Shown here one piece after another: positions 1 through 37,722 of a stretch of 38,102 bases of DNA. The notes below the pieces were generated by a model that was given only the letters and a program-made list of their open reading frames with translations, ran no database searches and was not told the origin of the DNA. The DNA is from Daejeonella sp. (GTDB lineage Bacteria; Bacteroidota; Bacteroidia; Sphingobacteriales; Sphingobacteriaceae). Within the stretch, counting starts at the first letter, position 1. Each line of letters starts with the position of its first letter. The stretch covers positions 1 to 38,102 of the forward strand of contig NZ_JAUYSS010000059.1 in assembly GCF_030695525.1 (NCBI RefSeq). The letters are read 5' to 3'. The translations under genes were made by a program, and so were the position numbers.

Positions 1-141
1 CGAACTATCTATCTTCTGGGGTGGTCAATTTGCTCCGGTTTACCCTGGTCAATTTGCTCCGGGATGGGGTGGTCAATTTCAACCGGGGAAGGTGGTCAGT
101 TTACTCCGGTTTAGGTGGTCAGTTTACTCCGTTTTTTCCAA
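1..141. mobile_element. Terminal repeat region of an IS21-family-like insertion sequence (right end only)
   Basis: Five imperfect copies of a unit close to GGTGGTCARTTTRCTCCGG follow one another at about 19-38, 45-62, 67-88, 91-109 and 113-131. Multiple short transposase-binding repeats inside the ends are a hallmark of IS21-family elements, and this wording is familiar from Bacteroidota members (recalled, not searched). Read on the minus strand, the end could begin with TGG at about 138-140, which would put the boundary near 140. The istA and istB genes would lie left of the window and are not seen. The element appears to interrupt the ATPase gene that follows. The exact end and the target duplication cannot be fixed without the other end. 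Confidence 0.7.
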
Positions 142-790: not shown

Positions 791-1251
791 TTTATGTTAA
801 ATAAAATCAAACTAATTGTATATAATGCAGACAAGACTACCATAAGTTCATGAAATAGTAATTATTATGGCAATTTTATTGCATTCACTTAAATATCTTC
901 ATTATCAACGAGGTATCCTAAAACAAATCAAAAATATTGAGCGAAATACGGATGAAGCAATTGGCTTTCATAGTTGCGACCGAATGCGACTGAACAAAGG
1001 TCACTGGAGTAAAACTCGCAGAGTGATCCAGTGATATTTTTTCCATTCAGAAGATACGAAGCTTGGCAGAATTATTGATCCAATAGGCATAAGCATAGGG
1101 AAATTCAATAATTCTGATAAGTTGAAGCCTTAAGGACAAAGCATTTCACCCTGCTAGACAAGCAATAATATTAGACTTAGTTACTTTTTGAGAAATCTGC
1201 AAATGAGTTGTCCTTTATAATCCAGCCTTTTAATTTTTCAGTGTTATTTTT
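791..1251. other. Gene-free stretch with a diverged copy of the structured element
   Basis: No convincing coding sequence is seen on either strand. The middle part, about 973-1060, is homologous to the structured element at 1745-2095 and is listed separately. The remainder is AT-rich and carries no recognisable promoter or terminator that I can defend. Confidence 0.5.
973..1060 (+). ncRNA. Diverged, probably decayed copy of the structured RNA-like element
   Basis: GTTGCG (973-978), GAATG (982-986) and AAAGGTCAC (996-1004) occur in the same order as in the element at 1745-2095. They are followed by a hairpin of identical layout: 5' arm 1001-1008 (TCACTGGA), five unpaired bases, inner stem ACTC (1014-1017), loop GCA, GAGT (1021-1024), GA, and 3' arm 1027-1034 (TCCAGTGA). 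Within the eight pairs shared with the other copy, six differ yet stay complementary. The partner for the long-range closing stem of the other copy is not found here, so this copy may be truncated. Strand is inferred from the G-U pairing in the fuller copy and is not certain. Confidence 0.45.
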
Positions 1252-1716
1252 TTACATCATTCCTTCATCCGCAAAACTTAGGTAACCATCCTTCGTCAGG
1301 ATAATATGTTCAATTACTGGTAAGTCTAGGAACTGTCCTGCTACTTTTAATTTCCTTGTAAGCTCTATATCTGCCTGGCTGGGCTTTAGATTACCTGATG
1401 GATGATTATGAACCAAGATAATACTTGCAGCATTACATTTGAGTGCTGAAACGAAAATAACTTTAGGGTCTGCTATTGTACCTGCCGTTCCACCAACTGA
1501 GATTGGCATAATACCTAAAATTCTGTTTGCTCGATTAAGTAGAATGATCTTAAATTCTTCAAGAAACTCAATAATTTCAAAATTCCAATTTTCTTTCAGA
1601 ATATTATATACTTCAATTGATGTGTTAATCTGAGGTCTATCTGAGATTCTATAATTCAGATTGTAAACCAGTTTCAATTCAGTAACCTGATTCAGGTTGT
1701 TAATAGTTTTTTTCAT
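1252..1716 (-). CDS. RadC-like JAB/MPN domain protein
   Basis: The 154-residue protein is a JAB-domain RadC homologue. It shows the metalloprotease-like signature HNHPSGNLKPSQAD (about residues 102-115) preceded by the EEF...LNRANRILG strand that carries the conserved Glu. The N-terminal helix-hairpin-helix region of full RadC proteins is absent, as in the many short RadC copies on Bacteroidota mobile elements. Despite the name, a role in DNA repair is doubtful, and the biochemical function is unknown; metal-dependent hydrolysis is inferred from fold only. It stands alone on the minus strand between two copies of a structured repeat. The ATG at 1716 fits the usual length for this short form. 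Confidence 0.88.
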   Translation of the reverse strand: MKKTINNLNQVTELKLVYNLNYRISDRPQINTSIEVYNILKENWNFEIIEFLEEFKIILLNRANRILGIMPISVGGTAGTIADPKVIFVSALKCNAASIILVHNHPSGNLKPSQADIELTRKLKVAGQFLDLPVIEHIILTKDGYLSFADEGMM

Positions 1717-1744
1717 GTTTATTGGTTTGAAGGAGGTTAAATTT

Positions 1745-2095
1745 CGGGCCGTTGCGGGCGGAATGAAAGGTCACGGCAGAGGAGTCAGCATGACGATGCC
1801 GGGATATCTTCGTAGAAGACAAAGCCTGAAAAAGTTATTGTTGTTAGGGACAGTGTTGAGGAACAATAAGTTGTGACAGGCTGCAGCCTGAATGACAAGC
1901 AGGCCCGCAAAACTAGAGAACCGTTTGGATTTTCAGGGTTTTCCTGATAATACAAGGGAAGGTTCTATGAGGATGATTGAATGAGCCTAGAATCATGCCA
2001 GGTTGAACGAAGTGACCTGGAGTGATTATGGAGGGAATGATTGAAGACGAATGCCTTATAACCGCTCTCGGATAGTAAGTAAAGACAGCGGATGG
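1745..2095 (+). ncRNA. Candidate structured non-coding RNA of unknown family
   Basis: The stretch between two minus-strand genes has no ORF but many perfect stems. A long-range stem pairs TTGCGGGC (1752-1759) with GCCCGCAA (1903-1910). Inside are 1775-1800 (GGCA/TGCC around GTCA-GCA-TGAC), TCTTC-GTA-GAAGA (1807-1819), TTATTGTT (1835-1842) with AACAATAA (1862-1869), and the 14-bp palindrome CAGGCTGCAGCCTG (1877-1890). Downstream are AGAACC (1917-1922) with GGTTCT (1961-1966) enclosing TCAGG/CCTGA (1933-1947), AATCAT/GTGATT flanking CCAGGT/ACCTGG (1991-2027), and CCGCT/AGCGG (2062-2091). A U-G pair in the 1991-2027 stem favours the plus strand. If instead it is read on the minus strand it would be the leader of the radC-like gene. 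It is not recognised as a known riboswitch, group I or group II intron. Confidence 0.55.
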
Positions 2096-2961: not shown

Positions 2962-3186
2962 GTGATAAACAACAGAGATCCTTTAGTCCTTAAAGAGTTT
3001 GGTAATAACTTACGCAAGCTGAGAAAAGAAAGAGGATTTTCTCAGGAGAAGCTTTCATTGCAAGCAGGTATATCTAAAAACCAAATAGGAAACATAGAAC
3101 GTGGAGAGGTCAATATTACTCTAGGTACGCTAGCTGTCTTAGCTAAAACCTTTAACATATCTTTAAAAGAGCTATTTGATTATTAG
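2962..3186 (+). CDS. XRE-family helix-turn-helix transcriptional regulator
   Basis: The 74-residue protein is almost entirely one HTH_3/XRE domain. GNNLRKLRKERGFSQEKLS forms helices 1-2, LQAGISKNQIGNIERGEVN holds the turn and recognition helix, and ITLGTLAVLAKTFNISLKELF is the C-terminal pair of helices. It is the size of the dimeric regulators found on plasmids and integrative elements and acts by binding DNA. The frame starts with GTG at 2962; no in-frame ATG precedes the HTH. The palindrome at 2912-2927 is its likely site. Its last 15 bp overlap the end of the convergent small gene at 3172-3414. Confidence 0.85.
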   Translation: MINNRDPLVLKEFGNNLRKLRKERGFSQEKLSLQAGISKNQIGNIERGEVNITLGTLAVLAKTFNISLKELFDY

Positions 3187-3486: not shown

Positions 3487-3834
3487 CTAGACTGTTTGTC
3501 GTTCCACCAACTTCATGTCTCCAAGAACACCAGTACTAACAGAGCCCTGGTACTCATAAGTGTAATCAAGCATCATAGTCTCACCTGTGGTTTTATTGGT
3601 GAATTCATAAGGCTCCGTTTCCCGTTTCACAATTTCTCCCTGCATCTGTGTACCAACTAATAATTTAGCTGTGTCTTCATTAAATGTGCAGGGGAGGCTG
3701 CAACGCTTGGTGGTTGCATAAAACTTGCCTGTCTGATTGCTTTGGACAATTTCCAAACCTCCTTGTAATTCCAGACAGATAAATGATCTACCTTCTTTTG
3801 TTTCTCTTACTGCGTAAGATGCTACTGTTACCAT
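3487..3834 (-). CDS. Small conserved-type protein of unknown function (115 aa)
   Basis: The 115-residue soluble protein (MVTVASYAVRETKEGRSFIC...) is predicted to be mostly beta-strand and has no signal peptide or recognised domain. Two cysteines sit in KRCSLPCTF. It precedes the 80-aa gene on the same strand and the two resemble a pair I recall from Bacteroidota mobile regions. The ATG at 3834 is followed by a plausible beginning, and the codon use resembles neighbouring genes. No function can be assigned. Confidence 0.65.
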   Translation of the reverse strand: MVTVASYAVRETKEGRSFICLELQGGLEIVQSNQTGKFYATTKRCSLPCTFNEDTAKLLVGTQMQGEIVKRETEPYEFTNKTTGETMMLDYTYEYQGSVSTGVLGDMKLVERQTV

Positions 3835-4203: not shown

Positions 4204-4279
4204 TGGTGGTACCAGCTGGAATCGAACCAGCGACACAAGGATTTTCAGTCCTTTGCTCTACCAACTGAGCTATGGTACC
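4204..4279 (-). tRNA. tRNA-Phe (GAA)
   Basis: A complete cloverleaf is encoded on the minus strand. The acceptor GGTACCA pairs with TGGTACC, the D-arm is GCTC-AGTTGGTA-GAGC, the anticodon loop is CTGAAAA with anticodon GAA (positions 4246-4244), the T-arm is GCTGG-TTCGATT-CCAGC, the discriminator is A, and a 3' CCA is encoded. The length is 76 nt including CCA. Its 3' end faces the accessory region 1-4200, which is the side where tRNA-targeting integrases insert. Two decayed copies of this gene lie to its right. Confidence 0.97.
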
Positions 4280-4478: not shown

Positions 4479-4556
4479 CTGGTCCCGATAGCAATCGGGG
4501 CGAACCAGCGACACAAGGATTTTCAGTCCTTTGCTCTACCAAAGAGCTATGGTACC
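4479..4556 (-). pseudogene. tRNA-Phe pseudogene with palindrome inserted in the T-loop
   Basis: The 5' acceptor strand, anticodon arm and 5' half of the T-arm match the intact tRNA-Phe. The D-loop is one base shorter (TTTGGTA), the three T-loop bases ATT are replaced by 18 bases containing the palindrome CCCGAT-AGCA-ATCGGG (4484-4499), and the 3' acceptor strand is gone. It cannot fold as a tRNA. Confidence 0.85.
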
Positions 4557-37282: not shown

Positions 37283-37722
37283 ATTTTTTAAATTTTAACT
37301 GACTAATAGAATTCAGAATTTGCATTTAGTACTTGATTTCAAAGTGTCTATCTTAATATTTTTGAATTATTGCCAGCAAGGTCAGTGCGAATTTACCATA
37401 CTTGAATATCGGTAATTGCCCATAAAAGCCTCCTGTACACAACGACTCATTAAAGCTTAATTTGCTTTAAGTCCAAAATAAAATTCAAAATCTTACCTAT
37501 TAATTCAATATATTTTCACCTACTCTTTACAGGCTTTTCGGTTTCTGCCTTTTGTTGTACAACATCGATCGCGATAGTCTAAGTAAAACATCTTCAGTGC
37601 AAAAAAACTATAGTGTAGGAAAATATTTAAAAAAAAAATATCTGACAATAAGTACATTAAAATGAATTGTACAGAACGATTCGCATAATCAAGAATGATG
37701 CGATAGGCCATTGAGACCAATA
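37283..37722. other. Stretch without an accepted gene in the peptide locus
   Basis: AT-rich sequence with a low-quality 66-codon minus-strand frame (37520-37720) and a 22-codon frame (about 37385-37453); neither shows a leader, start context or domain. A decayed peptide gene is possible. No terminator is clear. Confidence 0.45.

Follow-up and report, generated by a model that had tools for sequence, protein, structure and literature searches.

A probable family of large structured RNAs on tRNA-integrated, RadC-carrying islands of Sphingobacteriaceae

The nearest described system to the one analysed here is that of the IntY/RadC genomic islands of Pseudomonas (PNAS 2025; PMC12595487), for which the matched passages report a tyrosine integrase, a tmRNA target, RadC and a helix-turn-helix (HTH) protein among the shared genes, and defence cargo. 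Our islands resemble them in the tyrosine integrase, in the use of an RNA gene as target (tRNA in our case), in RadC, in the HTH protein and in the defence cargo, but they come from another phylum and carry a structured RNA, whereas the passages on the Pseudomonas islands name none and the word "noncoding" is absent from the text of that paper (PMC12595487). No description of our RNA stands in the matched passages of PMC2864571 or PMC12595487, and the literature searched by related terms yielded none in the parts covered; candidate lists outside Rfam lay beyond that search, so an earlier sighting is possible.

Several known RNAs and DNA sites also invite comparison. Pedo-repair (RF01715) is a structured RNA described from Pedobacter, in the same bacterial family, and bears a repair-related name, but its sequence and structure are other than those of the island RNA. 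The immunity RNA of P4-type satellites, the c4 antisense RNA (RF01695), is noncoding and acts in the circuit that controls an integrative element, much as proposed below for our RNA, but ours has no Rfam match and differs from c4 in size and structure. Large structured bacterial RNAs are, to our knowledge, few, and most were puzzling when found. GOLLD, ROOL, HEARO and OLE are hundreds of nucleotides long, contain many helices and often lie on mobile DNA; the island RNA shares the large size, the many helices and the mobile setting, but it matches no Rfam family, these included, and is tied to integrase/RadC islands. Integron attC sites, finally, are folded single strands that stand in more than one copy beside variable cargo genes, as our element does, but they are several times smaller, whereas the island element is conserved in primary sequence and loops and no general recombinase partner for it was found.

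Two copies of the element in the window

The window, the whole stretch of 38,102 nucleotides of Daejeonella sp. that was analysed, contains two copies of the element with a gene between them (Table 1). The first-pass annotation of this DNA had proposed two copies of an unknown structured RNA, at 973-1060 and 1751-2095, around a RadC-like gene. The gene is indeed RadC, encoded on the minus strand, and both elements are real, homologous and folded. Their coordinates had to be revised: element 2 ends near 2063 rather than 2095, and the true size of the unit, ~330 nt here and more elsewhere, had been missed, as had the integrase island with its defence cargo.

Table 1. Features of the window, with positions counted from its first base
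Feature	Position	Strand	Basis
Element 1, probably a shortened copy	950..1223	+	outer limits GGAT/ATCC placed by eye
Short RadC, 154 aa, JAB domain	1252..1716	-	PF04002 E 5.1e-37; PDB relative 2qlc E 3.7e-19
Element 2, full unit	1735..2063	+	closing stem GGTTA (1735-1739)/TAACC (2059-2063), from sequence
Hairpin P2 of element 2 (helices 7 and 8), includes the hairpin first annotated	1774..1804	+	covariation
Cro/CI-type HTH regulator, 74 aa, cluster F9	2962..3186	+	HTH_3 E 4.7e-16
Conserved 115-aa island protein, cluster F10	3487..3834	-	4 of 33 regions carry it, each time (4 of 4) on the strand opposite the RNA
tRNA-Phe	4204..4279	-	ARAGORN and Rfam

Both copies show GTTGCG, GAATG and AAAGGTCAC, followed by a stem, a 5-nt bulge, a second stem, a GCA loop and GA on the 3' side, just as first described. 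The six changes on both sides among eight base pairs that had been counted between them were also found (GGCA/TGCC versus TGGA/TCCA, two of four pairs; GTCA/TGAC versus ACTC/GAGT, four of four), although the supposed outer stem of 4 bp proved to be the inner portion of helix 7, which comprises 7 bp. The motif GAATG-N(0,10)-AAAGGTCAC occurs twice in the 38,102 bases, while 100 shuffled versions contained it 0.01 times on average and never twice.

The limits of element 2 (~1735-2063) and element 1 (~950-1223) were set from homology together with closing stems placed by eye. A covariance model of the 5' domain, R1 (170 positions, 30 pairs), was built from 19 of 22 aligned sequences, leaving out L149, L157 and L158; it includes element 2 but not element 1. 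R1 matched element 2, one of its own members, at 1744-1910 (E 1.4e-30) and element 1 at 978-1152 over model positions 1-170 of 170 (E 6.5e-20). Since element 1 was absent from the sequences behind R1, the latter match is an independent confirmation. A full-length nucleotide profile, of which element 2 is also a member, matched that element at 1742-2070 (E 3e-46) as its sole hit in the window at E 0.1; the 5' domain of element 1 (978-1152) is certain, and its 3' half is thus unconfirmed. At the contig start (window 1-140) there are several tandem copies of GGTGGTCA(A/G)TTT(G/A)CTCCGG, which resemble the repeated ends of an IS21-type insertion sequence.

The earlier view that the family is not a known one held up against Rfam 15 (4227 models), in which neither element gave a match at gathering score. 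The gathering matches in the whole window were two tRNAs and DUF805b, none of them at the elements; 800-2300 returned four sub-threshold matches only (E 2.4-3.7), and nine other homologue loci returned none at E 0.05. The DUF805b RNA (RF02914) lies at 37517-37551 on the minus strand, above its gathering score. We rejected a tRNA or tmRNA identity, as no such gene lies at the elements, and a HEARO or IscB-type RNA, given the absence of an Rfam match and of any nuclease recurring among the gene clusters of 33 regions. Pedo-repair was also set aside: neither the window nor the nine loci yielded a hit to it, and its model found nothing at E 0.01 in the window genome and matches in 4 of 122 genomes at that threshold, none above the cut-off. 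Conversely, R1 gave nothing above chance level at Pedo-repair loci, its best score (E 0.019) falling elsewhere in L348. Three Pedo-repair relatives (L345, L346 and L347), from three genomes of three genera (g14, g17 and g16), scored 92-105 bits against a gathering score of 150, and the Rfam model of Pedo-repair seems too narrow.

Covariation and distribution of the homologues

We assessed the fold on 68 distinct sequences from 69 R1 matches. Standard pairs made up 93.1% of 1,900 base-pair cells compared with 71.6% in shuffled alignments, changes on both sides occurred in 25 of 30 pairs (19.7 when shuffled) and in 403 cells (109.4 when shuffled), and the covariation score was 0.494, as against 0.146 for shuffled and at most 0.101 for slid controls. 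This alignment was fitted to the R1 structure, but a MAFFT alignment of 22 sequences that was not so fitted gives the same main helices. In hairpin P2, which includes the hairpin first noticed in the window, every one of the 11 pairs in helices 7 and 8 covaries, the seven of helix 7 among them, with 96.5% and 95.8% of cells paired, respectively.

In the consensus fold, a long stem pairs GCUCGCC...CUGC with GCAGGCGAGC and encloses three hairpins; 3' of it follow a hairpin containing GGAUUUU and a stem that pairs the UGACAAAC segment with GUUUGGCG. RNAalifold returned this full architecture with lax settings and the best helices only with default settings, and a further model, R2, caught nearly no structure and was not used. 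The conserved blocks are GAAGCCTGAGCGAT-NN-GCAGGCGAGCC, GCGGTTGGATTTT and, at the 3' end, GGAATGCCTTATTNCC, as seen in a reoriented alignment of the 22 sequences and the truncated L160, which was left out of the fold set. The ends pair as GGTTA/TAACC in the window and as GGTAAA/TTTACC in the copies of genomes G004 and G046, and longer elements include GC-rich forms and Flavobacteriales forms.

A protein-coding explanation was rejected: the homologues have no reading frame in common, and in 21 of the 22 the longest run free of stop codons takes up 32-71% of the element, L162 being the only one with an antisense frame open over its full length. Many covarying homologues were found, and we regard a real structured family as practically certain. 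The two elements are best explained as members of a single new family of large structured RNAs that fold on the plus strand and measure ~330 nt in the window and up to ~700 nt elsewhere.

With element 2 as query, blastn found matches in 14 of 201 genomes of the family, the window genome included; six of the 13 other loci were inspected, of which L002 and L003 were clear relatives and L004-L007 were without sign of the element. Querying with L003 instead gave matches in 20 of 301 genomes, again including the window genome. R1 reached further. At E 0.0001 it matched at least 41 of 121 Sphingobacteriaceae genomes in at least 15 of 25 genera, with up to six copies per genome; at E 0.001 it matched at least 8 of 20 genomes of the window genus, with three copies in the window genome; and in a sample of the phylum it matched at least 5 of 296 genomes, all five from the window's family. 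These figures are lower bounds, with 9 (phylum), 23 (family) or 140 (genus) candidates scored per genome and stricter filters applied above 40 genomes.

Weaker relatives of the RNA exist elsewhere in Bacteroidota. A motif scan of named genomes gave 76 loci, in 56 of which R1 produced 60 matches at E 0.01 (five cut off by an end), but the scanned motif is part of R1, so that weak E-values among them are inflated. The matches were strong in Sphingobacterium and Solitalea, clear in Draconibacterium and in MAGs assigned to Fluviicola, Flavobacteriales and Bacteroidetes, and weak in other Flavobacteriales and in records whose titles name Chitinophaga and Chryseobacterium. The 20 loci without an R1 match include all ten titled outside Bacteroidota together with several Brumimicrobium and other Flavobacteriales loci. 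A phage-borne element was considered and rejected, the motif pattern appearing in 8 viral contigs of which R1 matched none (0/8), and blastn in plasmid and phage records gave no match to the element. First, looser motif patterns were discarded because they hit coding sequence (five viral contigs) or, among the matches listed, lacked support from the nucleotide profile at E 0.1. Upstream of the element in L254, L255, L256 and L266 we observed a second repeated structured segment (…CCCTGCTTCGGAG…GTTCCCCC…CC…GG…) common to two genera.

Setting of the element in tRNA-integrated islands

The proposed tie to accessory elements and to RadC was supported and sharpened by tRNA-integrase islands and by a strand rule. 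With the window RadC as tblastn query, a short RadC turned up in 24 of the 63 regions searched, which cover 749 kb in addition to the window. Genes with the PF04002 domain occur in 118 of 122 genomes, where they number 1-8 each; a total of 749 kb should therefore contain one or two of them even at the highest density. Element and RadC lay on opposite strands in all 26 pairs, which involve 24 different RadC genes; the same held for 23 of 23 in the gene clusters of 33 regions and for three further RadC genes in the named loci. Most of the 33 regions were chosen for an already known RadC, and G084 and L165 are one place, so the gene frequencies among them are not rates, but the strand rule is unaffected by this choice. 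RadC was absent from the stretches analysed around the G004 copies (L249-L252) and the G025 copies in L254-L256, and the loci examined in named genomes outside Sphingobacterium showed no relative of RadC, F1 or integrase. RadC is thus not an obligate partner of the RNA.

Across the 33 regions the gene order is, with variations, tRNA, integrase, F1 or F54, cargo, RNA, cargo and RadC. The integrases F2 and F5 are tyrosine recombinases, and F54 carries BT4734-like N and AAA_25 domains. F1 is a 600-aa island protein found in 15 of 33 regions (e.g. L183 8086-9966 and L260 4691-6523); four members had no family match in Pfam except for one sub-threshold DEAD match, and the L183 member had none in Pfam, PHROGs or NCBIfam. 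By eye, its segments LLDESHT and SATP look like DExH-helicase motifs. F1 lay opposite the RNA in 14 of 14 cases and F54 in 2 of 2, while the F9 regulator shared the RNA strand in 4 of 4. F2 was opposite in 8 of 9, three of the nine being more than 13 kb away, and F5 in 3 of 4; the exceptions, the F5 of G108 and one of the distant F2 genes, in G127, are on the RNA strand. For comparison, 131 other open reading frames of at least 120 aa within 5 kb of the RNA were opposite and 76 on the same strand, as called naively rather than by a gene finder. The F10 protein of the window had no match in Pfam, PHROGs or NCBIfam.

A tRNA boundary beside a tyrosine integrase was found in G029, where the island lies between two tRNA-Pro genes 98.7% alike and 19.6 kb apart, in G111, between two identical tRNA-Phe genes, and on contig C30 of the window genome, where the order is RNA, F1 (sharing 37% identity with the L183 protein), integrase and tRNA-Val. 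Since related islands sit at tRNA genes, the tRNA-Phe of the window is probably the integration target at that island end. The contig starts at window base 1, so the tRNA end alone is visible, the other end and the island's own integrase lying out of view. A second, partial tRNA-Phe at 4486-4556 (39.8 bits, Rfam) agrees with the complete one up to the T arm and was not called by ARAGORN. We consider it very probable that the RNA is a recurrent island component in Sphingobacteriaceae. What is new here is its setting in tRNA-integrated islands with a tyrosine integrase, a helicase-like protein, a short RadC and variable, often defence-like cargo.

The genes behind the RNA differ between groups. 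In Sphingobacterium (g17), a same-strand gene starts within 100 nt of the 3' end in 13 of the 14 loci with a located 3' end (11 from the neighbour count, with L177 and L175 added from their coordinates; the L175 gene begins with TTG), and this often defence-like gene begins 13-84 nt behind the RNA. Outside g17, such a gene follows 2 of 37 located elements; 18 of the 69 elements lack a 3' motif that could be recognised and did not enter the neighbour counts. In the window and in L163, L165, L178, L181, L182 and L183 the next gene is convergent. Six of the 13 downstream genes match defence-type families (SIR2-STAND, GmrSD, Schlafen-AlbA, AriA/PtuA-like ATPase, NACHT and PDC-S28 helicase), two more fall in the same clusters, two were scanned without a PADLOC match and three were outside the scan. 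PADLOC at E 0.001 matched 8 of 10 hand-picked genes, two of them not directly behind the RNA, a figure that is not a rate. Gene families also recur directly behind the RNA (C20 in L166 and L167, C25 in L172 and L179).

Other copies have other neighbours. Those of G025 in L254-L256 are surrounded by RHS-type genes, ORF6N, tyrosine recombinases and a CHC2/Toprim protein. Clusters of tyrosine recombinases beside RHS-type genes and the element span L254 2396-5961 and 9280-12750, L255 5546-9591 and L266 74-3405; in L255 the cluster includes the CHC2/Toprim (DnaG-like) protein, and a 7-kb tandem duplication has one element per unit. In 5 of 16 loci examined, the opposite strand encodes a 140-aa protein upstream of the element, which was DUF6943 by Pfam in the two tested, but three of the five loci carry the motif and miss the R1 threshold. 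Proteins of this type occur at Flavobacteriales-type loci, at L340 474-893 and L289 5446-5868, and also in L325, L337 and L343.

Nature and possible role of the folded strand

To distinguish the strands, we compared G-U with A-C combinations at 17 well-varying pairs. Among 50 non-redundant sequences there were 20 G-U and 3 A-C (one-sided p 0.0002), and among 31 sequences below 70% identity 13 and 2 (p 0.004), an excess which indicates folding of one strand. When the fold was derived from 22 sequences with G-U pairs disallowed, the counts were 8 and 9, respectively, with no strand asymmetry. Together with covariation far above the shuffled and slid controls, the G-U excess supports the original suggestion of selection on a folded strand.

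A folded DNA strand would also be expected to show a G-T bias over A-C, and the main rival reading is a single-stranded DNA site serving island excision, transfer or replication, or a cassette site like integron attC. Its setting among integrase and primase-helicase genes, the fixed strand relative to integrase, F1 and RadC, and the genes that abut the 3' end in both directions fit such a site, as does the promoter search: a Bacteroidota-type promoter before the 5' domain gave no signal on the RNA strand (1 of 69 versus a shuffled mean of 2.6), while the opposite strand gave 10 of 69 versus a shuffled maximum of 8. However, attC sites are smaller than this element, which at 330-700 nt combines several domains with long stretches of conserved unpaired sequence, and the only recombinase right beside copies, in G025 and G041, has a strong full-length relative in just 2 of 122 genomes (6 of 122 at E 1e-20), for which reason we rejected a general dependence on it. 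In our judgement, the size, the several domains and the long conserved loops favour a folded RNA; the functional molecule is likely RNA, and a DNA site is improbable.

Still less probable is a mobile RNA-bearing element, HEARO-like or a small non-autonomous transposon, moved into accessory islands by enzymes acting in trans. G004 has four dispersed copies (L249-L252) that are 89-92% alike, and the sharp ends and pairing termini of the G004 and G046 copies, the high copy number of some genomes and the presence of two or more copies in several regions would suit such an element. Yet no nuclease or transposase recurs beside it in the gene clusters of the 33 regions, random landing would not yield the strand rule for RadC (26/26) and F1 (14/14), and the G004 copies in L250 and L251 also have an upstream gene in common, suggesting that these copies were duplicated together with flanking DNA. 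As a leader regulating in cis (attenuator or riboswitch-like) the gene that follows, in most cases a defence gene, the element would account for the close same-strand genes of Sphingobacterium and the families recurring there, but this is the least likely of these readings, since such genes are rare outside that genus and the next gene is convergent in the window and six other loci.

The best explanation as a whole, to which we give a probability of roughly one half, is an RNA family of integrative islands that helps in their control. Sphingobacteriaceae harbour a kind of island with a tRNA target, a tyrosine integrase, either F1 or a primase-helicase of the BT4734-like/AAA_25 kind, cargo that varies and includes defence genes, and a short RadC, in which integrase, F1 and RadC occupy one strand and the RNA and, where found, a Cro/CI-type regulator the other. 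Transcription of the RNA, as a noncoding molecule, would start from the strand of the regulator, and the RNA may help to control the island, for example by binding a factor of the island or of a helper phage, or by holding the strand of integrase, F1 and RadC silent; in Sphingobacterium, the often defence-like gene behind it may also use it as a leader. This specific role is tentative and is modelled by analogy on the immunity RNA of P4-type satellites.

An RNA absent from Rfam but common across a single bacterial family, with strong covariation and a strict strand relation to RadC, is of interest also for the role of RadC on mobile islands. We think it conceivable, if speculative, that a large and complex RNA serves as the controller or scaffold that decides between island silence, excision and release of the defence cargo, and that it has been reused in other mobile DNA of Bacteroidota (DUF6943-linked loci of Crocinitomicaceae-type genomes). 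The sequence of the RNA marks islands of Bacteroidota that carry defence genes, and two of its hosts, Sphingobacterium and Solitalea, can be cultured.
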